50,863 nucleotides of DNA from a virus. Below, one piece after another: positions 2 through 50,810 of this stretch. The notes under the pieces are model-generated. The model had not been told where the DNA came from. It saw nothing but the letters and a program-made list of their open reading frames with translations, and did not search any database. The DNA is taken from positions 1 through 50,863 of the IMG/VR virus record IMGVR_UViG_3300048554_001104. The stretch is one strand, 5' to 3'. The stretch's first letter is position 1; each line of letters starts with the position of its first letter. The position numbers and the translations under genes were made by a program.

Positions 2-1264
2 AAAGAAGAGCATCTTTGTAAGTATGACGCATTAACAACAACTCAAAAATTAAAAAAGTTAACCGCCGAAAAAAATCTTCCAGAAAAATACCACAACAGG
101 GTATGGGAGCTAAAACAACAAAAAACTCTACAAGAAATAGATCAATATAAACCCGACTACAGAATAATAGATATTCTTAAAAAATTAAAATCACAAAACT
201 ACAAAATTGCATGCGCAACAAATTCAATAAGAGAGACTTCAAAATTAATGTTAATAAGAAAAGGTTTTTTTGATTACATAGATTTTCTATATTCTAATGA
301 AGATGTAAATAACCCAAAACCTAATGCCGAGATTTACATGAGATGCATGTTGAAGTGCGGAGTTAATCCAGATGAAACAGTAATAATTGAAGATTCTCAT
401 ATAGGCAGGAAAGGCGCAATAAGGAGCGGAGGTTATTTGTGCGCTGTTAAAAACTCTAAAGACTTGACATTTACCAAACTAAATCATACTATAGTTAGCG
501 CAGAACAGCGATCTAAAATTTCACCAAAATGGCAAGGAGATAAAATGAACGTACTAATACCAATGGCGGGAGCTGGCTCAAGATTTGAGCAGGCCGGATA
601 CACTTTTCCCAAACCTCTTATTGATGTTAATGGAAAACCTATGATTCAAAGAGTTGTTGAAAACTTAAATATAGATGCAAGGCATATATTCATTGTACAA
701 AAATCTCATTACGAAAAATATTCATTACAACACACTTTAAATTTAATATCCCCAAATTGCGAAATAGTACAAGTGGAGGGTATGACAGAAGGCGCTGCAT
801 GCACAACTCTACTAGCTAAAGAATTTATAGATAATGACGAACCACTTATTCTTGCAAATTCAGATCAATATGTAAAATGGGATAGCAATCAATTTATGTA
901 CTCATCTATGGCTGATGATATAGATGGATCTATACTAACATTTCATTCCACTCACCCAAAATGGAGTTATGCAAAATTAAATGAAGATGGATTTGTCACA
1001 GAGGTTGCAGAAAAGAAACCTATTAGCGAACACGCAACAGTAGGAATTTATTTTTTTAAAAAGGGTTCAGATTACATTAGATGCGCAGAAAGCATGATTA
1101 AGAAAAATATTAGAGTCAATAATGAATTTTATGTATGCCCCGTTTACAACGAAGCCTTACTTGAAGGTGCTAGAGTAAAAACATTTCATATTGATAAAAT
1201 GTGGGGATTAGGCACTCCAGAAGATTTAGATACATTTTTAAAACATGATATTAGTATCTCATAG
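2..1264 (+). CDS. HAD phosphatase-sugar nucleotidyltransferase fusion (5' end outside window)
   Basis: The frame is open from base 2, so the true start lies upstream. The first 180 or so residues look like a HAD phosphatase of the beta-phosphoglucomutase type: motif II is ATNS, the motif III Lys is in NPKPNAEIY, and motif IV is IIEDS. The DxD nucleophile motif must lie upstream. From about base 544 a second domain begins, with a nucleotidyltransferase signature (MAGAGSRF, then FPKPLIDVNGKP) and a metal-site-like ANSDQY. The family makes NDP-activated sugars or alcohols from the phosphate, so the fusion probably processes and activates a glycan precursor. An ATG at 544 preceded by GGAGATAAA could also give a free transferase. 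The 3' end overlaps the next gene by 20 nt. The substrate cannot be told from sequence. Confidence 0.8.
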   Translation, partial: KEEHLCKYDALTTTQKLKKLTAEKNLPEKYHNRVWELKQQKTLQEIDQYKPDYRIIDILKKLKSQNYKIACATNSIRETSKLMLIRKGFFDYIDFLYSNEDVNNPKPNAEIYMRCMLKCGVNPDETVIIEDSHIGRKGAIRSGGYLCAVKNSKDLTFTKLNHTIVSAEQRSKISPKWQGDKMNVLIPMAGAGSRFEQAGYTFPKPLIDVNGKPMIQRVVENLNIDARHIFIVQKSHYEKYSLQHTLNLISPNCEIVQVEGMTEGAACTTLLAKEFIDNDEPLILANSDQYVKWDSNQFMYSSMADDIDGSILTFHSTHPKWSYAKLNEDGFVTEVAEKKPISEHATVGIYFFKKGSDYIRCAESMIKKNIRVNNEFYVCPVYNEALLEGARVKTFHIDKMWGLGTPEDLDTFLKHDISIS

Positions 1265-1667
1265 AGGAAATATTTCTGGGCCAATCCCAGAAAGAGAGAA
1301 TCATCCGGACTATATAAAAGAAGCTCTTTCTAAAGGTTACGATGTAGAGGTAGATATATGGGGAGATAAAGAATTATGGCTTGGTCATGACAAGCCTCAA
1401 TATAAATGCTCTGTTAGTTTCCTTATTAATAATTATCAAAAATTATGGATTCATTGTAAAAACTTAATGGCTATAGATATATTATCTGAGTTTAAAGTTT
1501 TGAATTATTTTTGGCATCAAAACGACGACCACACACTAACTTCTAAAAATTTCATATGGACTTACCCCGGAAAACATGTCTGTAATAAAAGTATTTTAGT
1601 AGTAGATGACGCTAGAGAATATGCAGGTCCGATTTGTTTTGGTTTGTGTTCTGATTATTTAAAGTGA
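1245..1667 (+). CDS. Short glycerophosphodiester phosphodiesterase-like protein
   Basis: The 140-residue protein begins with SHRGN, followed by a Glu-Asn pair, then DVEVDIW and LGHD. This is the order of conserved elements in GDPD-type TIM-barrel phosphodiesterases: HRG, then ExD, then HD. It is roughly half the length of a typical GDPD, so part of the barrel is missing or highly reduced. The family cleaves glycerophosphodiesters. In a glycan cassette it could act on a phosphodiester-linked sugar or on glycerol-phosphate decorations, but that is inference. The ATG lies inside the end of the upstream gene (20 nt overlap), and the TGA stop overlaps the GTG start of the next gene, so the three genes are probably translated as one coupled unit. 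Confidence 0.5.
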   Translation: MILVSHRGNISGPIPERENHPDYIKEALSKGYDVEVDIWGDKELWLGHDKPQYKCSVSFLINNYQKLWIHCKNLMAIDILSEFKVLNYFWHQNDDHTLTSKNFIWTYPGKHVCNKSILVVDDAREYAGPICFGLCSDYLK

Positions 1668-2545
1668 AATTATCTGATGACCATTTTTTAAATTACTTAA
1701 GCCATAACGAACATTTATCGTTAGAGCAAAGAATACGTTATAAATTTTTAAAAAACTACCTTCGGTCAATGGAGGAGTTTACAGACACCTTTTCTATTAT
1801 AATACAAGGGCCTTTAAATGAACGATCAATTAATACTATTCCAGAATATTTAAACTATGGCGAAGTCATAGTTAGCTGCTGGGAAACGGATGATTTTTCC
1901 AAACTTGAAAAATACAAAGATAAAATAAAACTAGTAATAAATAAATATTCCAATATAAATATAAAAAAAAGAAAAACAGGTAGTCAGGCTCCTTGGATTT
2001 ATCAAAATTATACTACATTAAATGGAATAAAAGCTGCGTCTAAATACTTTTGTATTAAAGTTCGCTCGGACGAAAGCTATCCAGTCTTAGATCCATTTTT
2101 AAATAAGCTAAGAGATAATAGAGATACTAAAAATAGCGAAACAGGCTTATATAATCACTACAAAATAGTTACATCTAATATTTATTTTAGATATGATTGG
2201 CAAAATAAATTTCATCCATCAGACCATATTATAGGAGGAACAAAATCCAGGATGCTTGAATCTTTCAAACTTTCCACAGCGTATTGCCAACAAGAATTAA
2301 CTAGATTCCCTGAGCAACTTATTTGCAAAGCGATTATTAATAGTTATTGGGATCCTTATCTAAAAAAACAAGAATCAGCAACGGATAATGAATCTATAGA
2401 GTTAATGAAAAAACACTTCGATATAGTTAGAATAAAAAATTTACCTAAACATATATGGACCTCTAGTTATAGGAAATATGATGAGTTATACAGCGAAGAA
2501 GATTGGTGTCATGATATAAATTCTATAGACATAAATACTAGGTGA
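1664..2545 (+). CDS. WavE-like LPS/glycan synthesis glycosyltransferase
   Basis: The 293-residue protein has the layout of the WavE lipopolysaccharide-synthesis family: an early hydrophobic strand ending in IIQGPL (about residue 50), a WETDD segment, and a central VRSDE, which fits a DxD-like nucleotide-sugar site. It then continues with Trp- and Tyr-rich helices. Such proteins transfer sugars to LPS core or capsule in bacteria. In a phage they may alter host surface glycan, virion proteins or DNA. The start is a GTG overlapping the stop of the previous gene (GTGA), the only in-frame choice that keeps the whole domain. It ends the first glycan block, 45 nt before the next gene, which has its own promoter. 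Confidence 0.6.
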   Translation: MKLSDDHFLNYLSHNEHLSLEQRIRYKFLKNYLRSMEEFTDTFSIIIQGPLNERSINTIPEYLNYGEVIVSCWETDDFSKLEKYKDKIKLVINKYSNINIKKRKTGSQAPWIYQNYTTLNGIKAASKYFCIKVRSDESYPVLDPFLNKLRDNRDTKNSETGLYNHYKIVTSNIYFRYDWQNKFHPSDHIIGGTKSRMLESFKLSTAYCQQELTRFPEQLICKAIINSYWDPYLKKQESATDNESIELMKKHFDIVRIKNLPKHIWTSSYRKYDELYSEEDWCHDINSIDINTR

Positions 2546-2554
2546 AATAAATAC

Positions 2555-2582
2555 TAGACAAAAATAAATCATGATATATAAT
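2555..2582 (+). promoter_or_regulatory. Sigma70-type promoter, near-leaderless
   Basis: The -35 box is TAGACA (2555-2560), the spacer 16 nt, and the -10 box a perfect TATAAT (2577-2582). The -10 ends 8 nt before the ATG at 2591, so transcription should begin within two bases of the start codon. It lies in the only sizeable gap of this region. Confidence 0.6.
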
Positions 2583-2590
2583 CTTTTATC

Positions 2591-3160
2591 ATGAGCATTT
2601 CACTTTATAAACCAAACAGTAAAAACACAGGATGCGCCTTTAATTTCAAAATTGGCGTAAACAAAGTAAAAGAGCCGGTAATTTACGCTAGCGCAATTCA
2701 ACAATATAGCTGGGACGATAGAAAAAAAACCGGCAACTTCTCTGGAAACGGTAGTGATCCAGATAAAAGAATTAACCTTAAATTTACAGAATTTGAAATC
2801 GGCGGAATAATTAGTTCTTTTAAGAATAGAAATGAGTTTTCTACATTTCACGCGTTTGAAGAAAACAAAACATCAATTAAATGTACTCCCTGGGATAAAA
2901 AAACTAAAGTCAAACAAGGAGATAAAGAGGAGTGGATAGTAATCCCGGCATTTGGAATTAATGTTACCAGAAACGGGAATCAGACTTTCAGGATACCATT
3001 AGAGCCTGGAGAAGTGGAAAACCTTCTTGAATTTTTCTCTTTTTACCTTTCTGAACTATATAAACACAGAAGAAGAGAAGAGATTAAAAGACTAAAAGAA
3101 TCCAAGGGCGGAGGTAATCAAAATCAATCATCAGAAGATAGCGAACAAGCGCCTTTTTAA
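2591..3160 (+). CDS. Probable ssDNA-binding protein (PC4/YdbC-like)
   Basis: The 189-residue protein has an N-terminal beta-rich part and a segment reading INLKFTEFEIGGI followed by basic and aromatic residues. This recalls PC4/YdbC/Whirly-type ssDNA-binding folds. A charged helix (about residues 150-168) leads into a flexible Gly/Asn/Gln/Ser tail ending in acidic residues and a final Phe (SEDSEQAPF). A disordered acidic tail with a terminal Phe is typical of bacterial and phage SSBs, where it docks partner proteins. Its own promoter lies directly upstream, with almost no leader. The fold call is by pattern only. An SSB role fits the nearby recombination gene but is not proven. Confidence 0.45.
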   Translation: MSISLYKPNSKNTGCAFNFKIGVNKVKEPVIYASAIQQYSWDDRKKTGNFSGNGSDPDKRINLKFTEFEIGGIISSFKNRNEFSTFHAFEENKTSIKCTPWDKKTKVKQGDKEEWIVIPAFGINVTRNGNQTFRIPLEPGEVENLLEFFSFYLSELYKHRRREEIKRLKESKGGGNQNQSSEDSEQAPF

Positions 3161-5067
3161 TGAAGAGGAAAAAGGTATTAATTCACAGTAATCACTGTAA
3201 AGCTTATACAGGCTTTGGAAAAAATACTAAAAATATATTACTACATTTACATAAAACAGGTAAGTATGATTTAGTTGAATTCTCTAATGGAATGAGATGG
3301 GGAGATCCTTCTTTAAAACTATTACCATGGAAAACCGAAGGTTCTCTACCGAGTGACACAGTCACTTTACAGAAAATGAATCAAGATCAAGCTCTAGCTA
3401 GAAATGCTGGTTATGGAGGTCAAACTATTGATAAAATCATAGAAAGGGAAAAGCCTGATGCTTACATAGGTATTGAAGACATATGGGCTTTCTCTGGATA
3501 TACCGATAAAAAATGGTGGAATAATATAAACTGTATGATATGGACTACTTTAGACAGTTTACCCATATTACCCGAAGCGGTCAAGAATGCTAACAAAATA
3601 AAAAACTATTACACCTGGTCATCTTTTGCATCTAAAGAATTAAATAGATTAGGACACAAACACGTAGACACATTACATGGAGCTATAGACACCACTAATT
3701 TTTTCAAATTTAAAAGCGATGAAAAAATTAAATTAAGATCAAGACTTAAAATAGATAAAGATGATTTCATTATTGGATTTGTTTTCAGAAATCAGTTAAG
3801 GAAAAGCGTTCCAAACTTATTAGAGGGTTACAAAATATTTTGCGAAAAAAATCCAGAATGTTCGGCTAAATTATTATTACATACTCATTGGAAGGAAGGT
3901 TGGGATATACCTAGATTGATAAACGAAAAGGGTATAAACCCTAAAAACGTTTTAACAACATATGTTTGTGCGCATTGTAAAAATTTTGAAATCAAACCTT
4001 ACGAAGAAGAAAAGAAAGATTGCGGTTTATGTGGTGCAGAGAAAACCCAAGTAACCCCAAACACTAGGCTAGGAGTTACTGAAGAACAGCTCAATGAGAT
4101 TTACAACCTGATGAATGTTTATTGCCATCCTTTTACCAGCGGAGGTCAAGAAATACCCATACAGGAGGCGAAACTTGTAGAACTTGTAACTTTAGTAACT
4201 AATTATAGTTGCGGTGAAGATTGCTGCACAGAGGATAGTGCTGGACTACCTCTCAGTTGGTCAGAATATAGAGAGCCAGGCACTCAGTTTATCAAGGCTA
4301 GTACAAATCCAGAAAGTATCGCAAGTCAGTTAAAAAAAGTTTACAGCATGAAAGACTCTAAACTCAAACTCCTAGGTAAACAAGCTCGCGACTTTGTGAT
4401 AAAAAACTATGGTATAGAGGCTATAGGTAAAAAATTAGAATCTATCATAGATAACATGCCTGAAGTAAATTGGGATTATGATTTTAAACCTATTGAAAAA
4501 AACCCAAACTATATTCCACCTGAAATAAAAAACGACGACGATTTTATAAAAGATATATATAAAAATATATTACAATTAGACGTAAACGAATCAGATGAAG
4601 GATTTAAACACTGGAAGAATAGACTATCCACCGATATGGATAGACATGGAGTATTGAAACATTTTCAACAAGTAGCTAAAAAAGAAAATAAAAAGCAGGA
4701 AAAAATAGATTTTACTGATATTTTAGATAAAGAAGACGAAGGGAATAGAATTTTATTTTCAATGCCTCAAAGTATAGGTGATATCTACATGTCTACATCT
4801 TTATTAAAAAATATAAAAGAACTATACCCAAACTATAATATTTATTATGCAACAAAGCCTGAATACTTTGAAATATTAGAGGGAAACCCTTATATTCATA
4901 AAGTAATTCCTTACAGTAAATCTTTAGATAGCTTACCAGCTATGGAAGGACAAGGCAACCATAAAGGTTTTTTTGAGATAGCTTTTCTTCCTTTTATCGG
5001 AACTCAAAAAATGTTAAATTACATTCACAATGGAAAAGATAAAATACAATTCGAATTATGCACTTAA
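3160..5067 (+). CDS. GT4 glycosyltransferase-DUF4214-GT9 N-terminal fusion
   Basis: The 635-residue protein has three parts. Residues 1 to about 430 resemble a GT4 (glycosyltransferase group 1) enzyme, with GGQEIPIQEAK matching the Glu-x7-Glu donor site. Inside it is an inserted zinc-knuckle-like pair, C270-x2-C273 and C288-x2-C291. Residues about 451-507 match DUF4214 (DDDFIKDIYKNIL, then HWKNRL). From about residue 525 the ILFSMPQSIGD segment starts a GT9 (heptosyltransferase-like) N-terminal Rossmann domain. The protein stops in the middle of that domain, and the next gene carries the rest. The ATG directly follows the previous stop (TAATG). It probably builds a short glycan on an unknown acceptor. 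Confidence 0.7.
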   Translation: MKRKKVLIHSNHCKAYTGFGKNTKNILLHLHKTGKYDLVEFSNGMRWGDPSLKLLPWKTEGSLPSDTVTLQKMNQDQALARNAGYGGQTIDKIIEREKPDAYIGIEDIWAFSGYTDKKWWNNINCMIWTTLDSLPILPEAVKNANKIKNYYTWSSFASKELNRLGHKHVDTLHGAIDTTNFFKFKSDEKIKLRSRLKIDKDDFIIGFVFRNQLRKSVPNLLEGYKIFCEKNPECSAKLLLHTHWKEGWDIPRLINEKGINPKNVLTTYVCAHCKNFEIKPYEEEKKDCGLCGAEKTQVTPNTRLGVTEEQLNEIYNLMNVYCHPFTSGGQEIPIQEAKLVELVTLVTNYSCGEDCCTEDSAGLPLSWSEYREPGTQFIKASTNPESIASQLKKVYSMKDSKLKLLGKQARDFVIKNYGIEAIGKKLESIIDNMPEVNWDYDFKPIEKNPNYIPPEIKNDDDFIKDIYKNILQLDVNESDEGFKHWKNRLSTDMDRHGVLKHFQQVAKKENKKQEKIDFTDILDKEDEGNRILFSMPQSIGDIYMSTSLLKNIKELYPNYNIYYATKPEYFEILEGNPYIHKVIPYSKSLDSLPAMEGQGNHKGFFEIAFLPFIGTQKMLNYIHNGKDKIQFELCT

Positions 5068-46509: not shown

Positions 46510-46538
46510 TTGACATCATAATACAATGCTGCTATAAT
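46510..46538 (+). promoter_or_regulatory. Consensus sigma70-type promoter, leaderless
   Basis: TTGACA (46510-46515), 17-nt spacer, TATAAT (46533-46538): both boxes match the consensus fully. The ATG at 46545 starts 6 nt after the -10, exactly where transcription should begin. Confidence 0.85.
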
Positions 46539-48188: not shown

Positions 48189-48217
48189 TTGACATTTACA
48201 TTTTTTTATACTATAAT
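48189..48217 (+). promoter_or_regulatory. Consensus sigma70-type promoter, leaderless
   Basis: TTGACA (48189-48194), a 17-nt T-rich spacer, TATAAT (48212-48217). The ATG at 48224 is 6 nt downstream of the -10. Confidence 0.85.
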
Positions 48218-48402: not shown

Positions 48403-48741
48403 ATGGAAAATCAAACACAAGAAAAACAAGATTCAAAGTGGCGCAACAGAGAGCTTGGAGCTCTTTGGGTAAGAAGCGGAAAAAACCAGAAGTATCTTTC
48501 TGGAACTATTAATATCGAAACAATGCCAGGAGTAACAGAAGCTTTAAAAGTTGTTGTTTTCACCAATAAAGGTAGAGATAAGAATGAAAAAGCTCCTGAT
48601 TATGTCATTTATAGATCAGAAGATCAGCAACAGCAACAGTCTCCAGACGTGGCTAAAGTCGCAGAGGCTGCAACTGAAGAAGTTAAATCTTCTAAGGCTA
48701 GTGTATCTAATGACGAGGACATTCCTGAAGAATTGTTCTAA
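48403..48741 (+). CDS. Hypothetical protein with SSB-like acidic tail
   Basis: The 112-residue protein has a small beta-rich N-terminal part (RELGALWVR, SGTINIETMPG, VVVFTNKGRDKNEKAPDYVIY) that resembles short phage proteins of the DUF736 style. A Gln-rich linker, an Ala/Glu stretch and an acidic end (SNDEDIPEELF) follow. The end resembles the DDDIPF tail of SSBs. It is cotranscribed with the small basic gene and lies just before the tmRNA. Function not known. Confidence 0.5.
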   Translation: MENQTQEKQDSKWRNRELGALWVRSGKNQKYLSGTINIETMPGVTEALKVVVFTNKGRDKNEKAPDYVIYRSEDQQQQQSPDVAKVAEAATEEVKSSKASVSNDEDIPEELF

Positions 48742-48759
48742 TTGATCTTTGAAAATTAT

Positions 48760-49126
48760 GGGCGTATACTGGATTCGATTTAAATTGAATTTGTATACTG
48801 CAAGTAGGAGTGTGTCTGGCTCCTAAATAAGGCACAAATCATTACATGGCAAAAATCTTAGTCGTGTCGAAAGCTTCGCTCCAAAAAGCGAAGTTTTCGC
48901 TTTGGCAGCATAACGTCTGTCACCTCGCAACTTTTGACGCAGATAGAAAGATTGCGAGGTCATCAATCTGCAAAACAGATAAAAGTTTTCCTGTATCACA
49001 AACTGTAAATAATTGAAACAAGAAGTTGGATGTTAATATCATAACTTTAAAAAAAATTAACTAAACTTGTAGATGTATATCTCTGAAAATTTAAAGACGC
49101 GGGTTCAACTCCCGCTACGTCCACCA
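48760..49126 (+). ncRNA. ssrA: Transfer-messenger RNA (tmRNA)
   Basis: The acceptor stem is formed by GGGCGTA (48760-48766) and TACGTCC, followed by ACCA (ends 49126), with one G-U pair. The T arm GCGGG-TTCAACT-CCCGC lies at 49099-49115, and the 5' part continues with the tmRNA-typical ACTGGATTCGA. Pseudoknot 1 is visible (GGAG/CTCC and GTGTC/GGCAC), followed after 12 nt by a GGC resume codon (48848). The frame runs 21 codons to TAA (48911-48913): it starts GKNL and ends EVFALAA, a typical ClpXP degron end. A further helix ACCTCGCAA/TTGCGAGGT spans 48922-48960. The RNA rescues stalled ribosomes. The encoded CCA and the whole fold argue it is functional. Confidence 0.93.
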
Positions 49127-49133
49127 ATTTAAA

Positions 49134-49412
49134 ATGAATTTATTAAATAAAATAACAAAAGTATTTTCTAAACCTAAGAAAGAACATGAGACTCCAATCA
49201 TTGATTTTATCATAGATAAGATCACCAACTGTGAAGAAAAGCCGGAGTCAGTAGATGAACAAGAATGGAAATCTATCAAAAAAAGTATGCTTTTTGCATT
49301 TCGAGCAAAAAAAAGAAAACTACCATTAATATCAAAAGGAAGAAGAAACGCTGAATTAATCAAAACCAAACAAGGCTTCGAGCTTTTTGAGGTCTACATA
49401 AAACATTTATAA
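49134..49412 (+). CDS. Hypothetical protein (92 residues)
   Basis: It starts 7 nt after the tmRNA 3' end. The peptide is helical and Lys/Glu-rich, with IIDFIIDKITN and a basic stretch FRAKKRKLPL. No family is recognised. It ends 2 nt before the next small gene, so the pair is probably cotranscribed and possibly read through from the tmRNA. Confidence 0.5.
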   Translation: MNLLNKITKVFSKPKKEHETPIIDFIIDKITNCEEKPESVDEQEWKSIKKSMLFAFRAKKRKLPLISKGRRNAELIKTKQGFELFEVYIKHL

Positions 49413-49414
49413 TT

Positions 49415-49588
49415 ATGAACAAAGAAAACGAAGACGAAGATGAAATTTTTTTTGAGCCAGACGAAGCGCTCATTTTAGCTCTTAATGAAGTAAATGATCT
49501 CAGAGAGCTCATGGAAAACCAAGACTCTGAAATCGAAAAATTAAAGAAAGAGCTCCTTTCACTAAAGAAATACATCAAAAAGTCTTGA
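49415..49588 (+). CDS. Small acidic coiled-coil protein (57 residues)
   Basis: It begins MNKENEDEDEIFFEPDE and ends in a heptad-like helix (NQDSEIEKLKKELLSLKKYIK). The acidic start and coiled coil resemble small adaptor or inhibitor peptides. Its TGA stop is inside the -35 box of the following promoter. Confidence 0.5.
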   Translation: MNKENEDEDEIFFEPDEALILALNEVNDLRELMENQDSEIEKLKKELLSLKKYIKKS

Positions 49589-49613
49589 CATAGTAAAGAT
49601 TTTATGGCATAAT
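49585..49613 (+). promoter_or_regulatory. Sigma70-type promoter, near-leaderless
   Basis: TTGACA (49585-49590), 17-nt spacer, CATAAT (49608-49613). The ATG at 49622 is 8 nt beyond the -10, giving a leader of at most two bases. Confidence 0.75.
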
Positions 49614-49621
49614 AATGTCAT

Positions 49622-49891
49622 ATGAAAAAAATCTCATTAAACAAAGATGGTACTCCCCGCAAACGCCGAAATTCAGGCAAAGGCGGTCACGCTATTGTTT
49701 CCTTGTCTGTTGACGAGATATTAAATCTCGCATCACAAGAAGTTACCTCTATTCCAGTTAGCGAAAGTTGGGTTAAAGGCAGACTATACGCTAATTATTT
49801 AGCTAATAAAAAAGTCAGTAATGACTTTAGTGAACTACAGTCAGCAGAGGACAAAATTGAATATGCGTTAACATCTTTTGATAATGAATAA
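49622..49891 (+). CDS. Hypothetical protein (89 residues)
   Basis: It has a basic N-terminus (TPRKRRNSGKGGHA), then a beta-strand (IVSLSVDEIL), and a helical C-terminus. The pattern could suit a small DNA-binding or regulatory protein, but no signature is clear. It has its own near-leaderless promoter and overlaps the RuvB-like gene by 8 nt, so both are likely made together. Confidence 0.5.
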   Translation: MKKISLNKDGTPRKRRNSGKGGHAIVSLSVDEILNLASQEVTSIPVSESWVKGRLYANYLANKKVSNDFSELQSAEDKIEYALTSFDNE

Positions 49892-50810
49892 TTATTTTTC
49901 ACATTTAATAGGTCAGGAAAACGTTAAGAAAAAACTTAACTTTTACCTCAAAGCTTATCATGCAACAAGCGTATGCCCGTTTCTGAATTTAGTAGGAGCT
50001 AAAGGATTGGGTAAGACTTTGTTTGCAAAAGAATTTGCAAAAAACCTTCATAATCAAGATGGTTCTAAAAGACCATTTCTTGAGTTAAATTGTTCAACAA
50101 TCAAGAATAACGCGCAGTTTTTCGAGCAGATTTTTATTCCTATAATCATGAATAACGAGATTACAATCTTGTTTGATGAAGCTCACGCCTTACCTAAAGA
50201 TTTGACTATGGCATTTCTTACTATTTTCAATACGGAGAAAACTAACACGAAAGAATTTGTATATGATGATCAAACTTTTACATTTGACTTTTCAAAGCAA
50301 ACTTTCATTTTTGCTACAACCGAAAGCGATAAGTTATTCCCGCCACTAAAAGATAGGCTTAGTACAGTTGATTTTGAGCAGTACTCTTCCGAAAACCTAT
50401 CAGACATCATCAAATTAAATTGCGATGGAATTAATTTCACAAAAGACGCGCTAGACGCTTTGTCATTAACTGTTCGAGGTAACGCTAGGAATGCAGTTAT
50501 GAGGTCTAAAGAAATCGTGTTATATTGCGAGTCAGAAAATAAAAACACATTTGATCTTAGTGACTACGCAAATCTTACGGATCTACTCGGTATTCTTCCG
50601 CATGGAATCACGTGTACAGAAAAGCAGATTCTAGAGATCCTTGCTGATAGAGGCAGCTGTAAGTTACAAACGTTATCAGCGGTTACGGGACTCAGCCCTA
50701 CATCTCTAAGAAGGGATCATGAGATATATCTCCTAAGAAAAAATTTCATACAAATCGACGGAGAAAGAAAAATCACCAATTTTGGTAAAAACTTAATTCA
50801 ATCAATATAA
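49884..50810 (+). CDS. RuvB-like AAA+ ATPase (Holliday junction branch migration)
   Basis: The 308-residue protein starts LIGQENVKKKL, as RuvB does, then has Walker A GAKGLGKT (residues 38-45), Walker B with D98 E99 (ILFDEAH), sensor-like FATTESD, and the arginine-finger LKDRLS (R158). The C-terminal winged helix ends with DHEIYLLRKNFIQIDGERKIT, close to the RuvB EPYLLR-x-G-F-I-x-R-T end. RuvB pumps DNA through RuvA-bound junctions. No RuvA or RuvC is visible here. A clamp-loader-like AAA+ is the main alternative. The ATG at 49884 is chosen; a TTG two codons upstream is less likely. Confidence 0.75.
   Translation: MNNYFSHLIGQENVKKKLNFYLKAYHATSVCPFLNLVGAKGLGKTLFAKEFAKNLHNQDGSKRPFLELNCSTIKNNAQFFEQIFIPIIMNNEITILFDEAHALPKDLTMAFLTIFNTEKTNTKEFVYDDQTFTFDFSKQTFIFATTESDKLFPPLKDRLSTVDFEQYSSENLSDIIKLNCDGINFTKDALDALSLTVRGNARNAVMRSKEIVLYCESENKNTFDLSDYANLTDLLGILPHGITCTEKQILEILADRGSCKLQTLSAVTGLSPTSLRRDHEIYLLRKNFIQIDGERKITNFGKNLIQSI

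Follow-up and report, generated by a model that had tools for sequence, protein, structure and literature searches.

The window analyzed here, the whole 50,863-nt stretch of IMG/VR virus record IMGVR_UViG_3300048554_001104, carries a complete one-piece tmRNA (ssrA) gene of 367 nt at positions 48760-49126 of the plus strand. Its product is considered to be a working phage-encoded tmRNA that would employ the alanyl-tRNA synthetase (AlaRS), SmpB, ribosomes and proteases of the host (probability about 0.88), because the full Rfam anatomy is present, the structure covaries among relatives, the tag frame is under selection, and both a promoter and a boxA-like leader are conserved upstream.

Detection and anatomy of the tmRNA gene

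A cmscan search of the window against all of Rfam 15 placed the tmRNA family RF00023 at 48760-49126 (+), with a score of 124.8 bits (GA 47) and E=1.9e-48, or E=4.4e-52 on a repeat search scaled to one genome. The match spans positions 1-374 of the 374-position model and is not truncated, and RF00023 was the sole Rfam family above threshold within the whole window. The initial annotation, made from the letters of the DNA, had proposed a complete tmRNA gene and an Infernal/Rfam search to check it; the claim was not refuted, since the match falls at exactly the coordinates then given and well over the threshold. The individual parts named at that time (an acceptor stem with encoded CCA, a T arm, pseudoknot 1, a resume codon and a 21-codon tag ending in ALAA) are all present. 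In addition to pseudoknot 1 (PK1), the only one listed earlier, the window copy contains pseudoknots 2, 3 and 4 (PK2-PK4), as well as a long P2 stem. The features of the gene are as follows.

48760-49126, plus strand: complete one-piece tmRNA (ssrA), 367 nt, encoded CCA; full RF00023 model
48760-48766, plus strand: 5' strand of the acceptor stem, GGGCGUA, which holds G3 of G3·U70; 7/7 pairs, with 217/217 cells paired in 31 relatives, including double changes
48806-48836, plus strand: PK1 (AGGAG/CUCCU and UGUGUC/GGCACA), helices 5 and 6; both-side changes in 2 and 5 pairs
48837-48847, plus strand: 11-nt spacer from PK1 to the resume codon, with U(-5)A(-4) at 48843-48844; this U and A invariant in 31 aligned sequences
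48848-48913, plus strand: tag frame GKNLSRVESFAPKSEVFALAA and stop codon TAA, resume codon GGC; protein-level constraint, with homologous 21-aa tags called by ARAGORN in relatives
48874-48893, plus strand: hairpin in the tag region (CUUCGCU/AGCGAAG), helix 7; both-side changes in 4/7 pairs
48922-48971, plus strand: PK2, helices 8 and 9; both-side changes in 9/13 pairs of stem a
48984-49023, plus strand: PK3, helices 10 and 11; stem b of the window copy contains a single C·A mismatch
49024-49061, plus strand: PK4, helices 12 and 13
49099-49115, plus strand: T arm GCGGG-UUCAACU-CCCGC, helix 14; both-side changes in 5/5 pairs, 99.4% of cells paired
49116-49126, plus strand: 3' strand of the acceptor stem, UACGUCC (49116-49122), followed by discriminator A and CCA (49123-49126)

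The acceptor strands GGGCGUA and UACGUCC are paired at 7/7 positions, including G3·U70, the alanine identity element. The resume codon GGC occupies 48848-48850, the 21-codon tag GKNLSRVESFAPKSEVFALAA runs from 48848 to 48910, and the TAA stop codon lies at 48911-48913. The window copy shares with the E. coli tmRNA both the 11-nt spacing between PK1 and the resume codon and the A at -4, which in E. coli (A86) is the main determinant of the frame (PMC2481249).

ARAGORN, the tmRNA tool of PMC9004378 and PMC7162821, reported no tmRNA in the window. Within the tmRNA family, the program detected 27 of 46 members and missed the other 19, every one of which scores far over the Rfam threshold. The copies missed were, apart from that of the window, those of L046, L047, L049-L054, L056, L057, L133, L134, L136, L137 and L139-L142. 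The miss reflects a limitation of the program, given that the 27 detected include close relatives built in the same way, and a check by ARAGORN alone would have led to a wrong rejection of the gene. Phage surveys based on this program undercount such tmRNAs.

Conservation and recombination of the tmRNA in related phages

Relatives of the proteins that flank the tmRNA were found in dozens of IMG/VR contigs, and the locus is syntenic with dozens of viral contigs. A tmRNA above the cut-off was present in 26 of 34 and in 24 of 29 related or pattern-matched viral contigs (together 50 of 63), counts that are enriched because the contigs were found either by the flanking proteins or by a pattern of the tmRNA 3' end; all contigs analyzed are fragments. 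The PK2 signature occurred in 77 stretches of viral contigs and, with all loci combined, in 62 distinct tmRNA sequences.

Covariation was assessed in an alignment of 31 distinct relatives, using a structure of 90 pairs written from the window copy. Standard pairs filled 95.2% of the pair cells; since the structure was derived from one aligned sequence, the percentage paired is biased in comparison with slid versions, and the counts of double changes are the stronger evidence. Changes on both sides were observed in 49 of the 90 pairs, versus 26.3±2.5 in shuffles (0 of 500 as high) and 13-18 in slid structures, and the covariation score was 0.336 versus 0.152. Covariation supports helices 5, 6 and 8-13 (PK1-PK4), stem b of PK2 being invariant and hence uninformative. 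Four pairs of the acceptor stem exhibited double changes, and G3·U70 was retained in all 31 relatives. Broken pairing of the acceptor or T arm in related phages, which the initial annotation had named as the sign against a tmRNA, was looked for in the same set, in which the acceptor is 100% paired and the T stem 99.4%. Additional insertions close to PK3, or a 3' end that lacks the encoded CCA, are seen in several relatives. Overall, the pattern of double changes argues that the tmRNA structure is under selection.

The tag frame was compared among 23 distinct 21-codon tags. None of the 23 contains an internal stop codon in frame 0, while 18 and all 23, respectively, contain stops in the two shifted frames, and the synonymous share of single-base codon differences is 72% in the tag frame versus 34% and 6% in the shifted ones. 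The tags follow the consensus GKNx[SN]RVx[SA]F[AS]PxxEx[LF]ALAA, in which little or no variation is seen at GKN, F10 and the terminal ALAA, and ARAGORN independently reported homologous 21-aa tags in the relatives that it detects. These patterns indicate that the tag frame is under selection at the protein level.

Across the wider family set, tag length ranges from 19 to 34 aa, and the resume codon is GGC in 53 of 57 automatically read tmRNAs, the remainder having GCT or GCC. The tags of ∼31-32 aa (in L145, L163, L166, L170, L176, L191 and L200) seem to have grown via internal repetition, for example GNKNRVRALGFKNRLAAKRFGFKGRKLALAA. The proposal that the GGC (Gly) resume codon and the tag length could identify the host lineage was thus not borne out, since both vary inside one phage tmRNA family. 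Scans for a donor were likewise empty, with 0 matches to the family tmRNA 5' end in 84,980 bacterial and archaeal genomes, using exact patterns by which a diverged donor would be missed.

Among close relatives, the 3' end of the tmRNA is a hotspot of recombination. Identity between L136 and L142 is 99.3% as far as tmRNA position ∼341 and 98.5% beyond a divergent part, which comprises the T arm, the 3' end and the adjoining downstream bases (57 versus 134 bp between the matching blocks). Relative to L138, L140 and L141 contain ∼616 bp extra directly after the CCA, coding for a 192-aa endonuclease (phrog_3322, E=2e-20; HNH phrog_3118, E=6.6e-11). The same gene, at 68% identity, is located 42 bp after another tmRNA, that of L145 (L145:2558-2958). 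Two of the three contigs are nearly identical.

L140:1596-2174: HNH/endonuclease VII-like gene after the tmRNA CCA
L141:1910-2485: HNH/endonuclease VII-like gene after the tmRNA CCA
L145:3001-3570: HNH/endonuclease VII-like gene after the tmRNA

The arrangement looks like the invasion of a phage tmRNA locus by a homing endonuclease. Homing endonucleases are known inside tmRNA group I introns (PMC11915505), and a literature search of titles and abstracts returned none of the free-standing type at a phage tmRNA. The window copy has no endonuclease insert; a fragment of the same HNH-type gene was seen at the end of the contig of L146.

Two alternative alleles of the T arm and 3' end (the last ∼30 nt) were seen to be common to different tmRNA lineages, dividing L136/L137, L138 and L180 from L139-L142. 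Allele one is GACAGCGGTTCGACTCCGCT..CCAAAA, without an encoded CCA, and allele two is GACGCGAGAATCGAAGCTCGC..CCACCA, with an 8-nt T loop. This allele is the main difference between nearly identical phages.

Genomic setting and the upstream leader

The genes of the window include those for a lambda-type tail, S74-type tail fibres, a phage minor tail protein and a clamp-loader-like ATPase. Together with the syntenic neighbors in viral contigs, the tail genes bear out the earlier claim that the tmRNA is carried by a phage; we judge that it lies in the phage genome and is inherited with phage genes. The carrier is an unstudied family of aquatic phages, uncultivated and bearing lambda-type tail genes. 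The elements adjacent to the tmRNA are listed below.

48189-48217, plus strand: sigma70-type promoter TTGACA-17-TATAAT, 12/12 match, 542 nt upstream of the tmRNA
48403-48741, plus strand: 112-aa ORF in the interval between promoter and tmRNA, a conserved tmRNA neighbor (29 viral loci, 64-98% identity)
48744-48754, plus strand: boxA-like element GATCTTTGAAA, located after the preceding stop codon, with 5 nt separating it from the tmRNA
49134-49412, plus strand: 92-aa ORF directly downstream of the tmRNA, probably co-transcribed

A perfect sigma70-type promoter is located at -534 to -833 from the tmRNA in most relatives. Between promoter and tmRNA, 21 of 25 representative relatives have the boxA-like motif G[ACT]TCTTTNANA inside the last 30 nt before the gene, versus 1 of 543 background 30-nt windows, and in those 21 it ends 5-8 nt ahead of the gene. 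Occurrence of the motif in the window is not significant by itself (3 found versus 4.35 expected); only its fixed position across relatives is. Six relatives fit the published boxA consensus GYTCTTTAANA (PMC5725501) exactly, and the window copy departs from it at 2 positions. In rRNA, boxA brings in NusB/NusE to form a complex that counteracts Rho-dependent termination (PMC4807359, PMC5725501). Antitermination of this kind would, by analogy, fit a non-coding RNA of such length located within a coding operon. No paper linking boxA to a tmRNA gene was found, as judged from literature-search listings.

The 112-aa protein had no confident family match (a weak one to DUF736, E=0.0038). Its C-terminus, DEDIPEELF, is an acidic tail that resembles the tail of single-strand DNA-binding proteins. 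Further downstream, at 49878-50810, is the gene for a RuvB/clamp-loader-like AAA+ ATPase (phrog_168, E=1.7e-14), which is 86-99% conserved in tmRNA-bearing relatives; three contigs with ∼56% relatives of it had no tmRNA match. In L048 and L056, an apparent tRNA-Ser (GCT) gene, read by eye, follows the tmRNA by a few bases, so that some relatives may have a small cluster of RNA genes.

Regarding the host, the Gly resume codon had raised the suspicion of Bacteroidota. This host was dropped because the perfect TTGACA-17-TATAAT promoters do not fit the Bacteroidota promoter type. Other near-perfect sigma70 promoters were seen in the window at 46510-46538 (12/12, with a TG extension) and 49585-49613 (11/12), which suggests canonical promoter recognition in the host. 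A cyanobacterial host was also considered, on indications that are not decisive. The region 2-5067 of the window contains HAD hydrolase/sugar nucleotidyltransferase and glycosyltransferase genes, of which the nucleotidyltransferase is ∼61% identical to Synechococcus phage proteins, and the tag of L155 begins with ANNIVRF, which resembles cyanobacterial tags. A search with the terminase family PF17289 yielded nothing to place the phage.

Proposed function and relation to known tmRNAs

Phage tmRNAs are already known, and the window tmRNA is a new member of the family rather than a new kind of thing. Ten were named in PMC4131195, and PMC9004378 reported tmRNA in 402 of 18,146 phage genomes, with only 2.5% of the one-piece phage forms being marine; huge phages carry both tmRNA and SmpB (PMC7162821). 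A blastn search with the window tmRNA gave no match among 50,697 phage records. In common with the bacterial one-piece tmRNA (RF00023), the window copy has a tRNA-like domain (TLD) with G3·U70, the CCA, four pseudoknots, a resume codon after UA(-5,-4) and a tag ending in ALAA; it differs in being phage-borne, in its 21-aa tag (the commonest length being 10 aa) and in its GGC resume codon. The tmRNAs of the mycobacteriophage Bxz1 group, Wildcat and Bacillus phage G are likewise complete and presumably use host SmpB, but belong to a different phage group. Those of the methylophage Melnitz and the pelagimyophages (PMC9004378) are also from aquatic phages; in contrast to the one-piece window tmRNA with its boxA-like leader, they are permuted two-piece forms, one of which is associated with a glutamine riboswitch. 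Mycobacteriophage DS6A has a TLD-only RNA, a phage-borne tRNA-like domain of tmRNA without tag and pseudoknots, all of which are present in the window gene.

Among the roles suggested in the initial annotation, ribosome rescue with the phage's own tag is the most likely, judging from the intact anatomy and the selected tag frame. Transcription would start from the promoter at 48189-48217, and the boxA-like element would keep RNA polymerase from Rho termination across the 367-nt untranslated stretch. The ends of the RNA would be trimmed by host enzymes and charging performed by host AlaRS via G3·U70. Host SmpB would then bring the tmRNA to stalled ribosomes, where reading would pass to the GGC codon and Ala-GKNLSRVESFAPKSEVFALAA would be added. 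An -ALAA end predicts ClpXP-type degradation, and the tagged product would be sent to host proteases of this type. The benefit to the phage would probably be extra rescue capacity when infection, or host defences that cleave RNA, yield many broken mRNAs. Points against a working tmRNA are the C·A mismatch in PK3 and the two boxA departures of the window copy, and the lack of a phage SmpB, none having been detected in 24 family contigs; the RNA must consequently rely on the SmpB, AlaRS, ribosomes and proteases of the host.

While more rescue capacity is the simplest account of the presumed benefit, a special fate of the tagged proteins must also be taken seriously, given that conservation extends to the N-terminal half of the tag. 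In this sub-case of a working tmRNA, which is not an alternative to it, the long GKNxxRVxxF segment would serve as the main purpose of the gene by directing tagged proteins to another protease or adaptor, to slower decay or to amino-acid recycling. The tags, at 19-34 aa, are conserved along their length, compared with a commonest length of 10 aa (PMC11915505), and another phage tmRNA has been suggested to tag host proteins selectively (PMC9004378). However, part of the constraint may act on the RNA, at the hairpin of 48874-48893, and the terminal ALAA is the ordinary degradation signal. We hold a special tag to be possible but rather unlikely as the main purpose. Equally tentative is a broader proposal of a phage-specific tmRNA lineage, in which the long conserved tag would confer a phage-specific protein fate, boxA would protect transcription, and the 3' end would be a site for free-standing HNH homing, with T-arm alleles swapping between phages as immunity alleles.

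It is very improbable that the phage RNA is a decoy or inhibitor, competing for host SmpB, AlaRS or ribosomes and thereby shutting off host trans-translation. Such a role was proposed for the TLD-only RNA of DS6A, and a phage TLD-only tmRNA inhibits E. coli tmRNA (PMC4131195, PMC11915505). Nevertheless, the tag frame, resume signal, PK1 and -ALAA end, all needless for a decoy, are retained here, and the reading was rejected.

The chance is slighter still that a host ssrA gene or fragment was left, unselected, by imprecise prophage excision: integration often takes place at the 3' ends of ssrA genes (PMC11915505, PMC9004378), and the pattern-matched L064 and L065 (1501-1704) hold only a 38-bit partial match that includes the tmRNA 3' end, but across dozens of phage contigs the gene is complete and shows synteny and covariation, its tag frame is under selection, and instead of a partial 3' copy beside an integrase we found an intact gene and no match to the tyrosine integrase family PF00589 in 18 contigs. 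The partial matches of L064 and L065 are themselves possibly prophage attachment-site remnants; there is no tyrosine integrase on the L065 contig (G030).

In this group of uncultivated phages, whose tail genes are of the lambda type, full-length tmRNAs under selection are a standing gene. Their conserved long tag poses a testable question, namely whether the phage gains more rescue capacity or a different fate for the proteins that are tagged.
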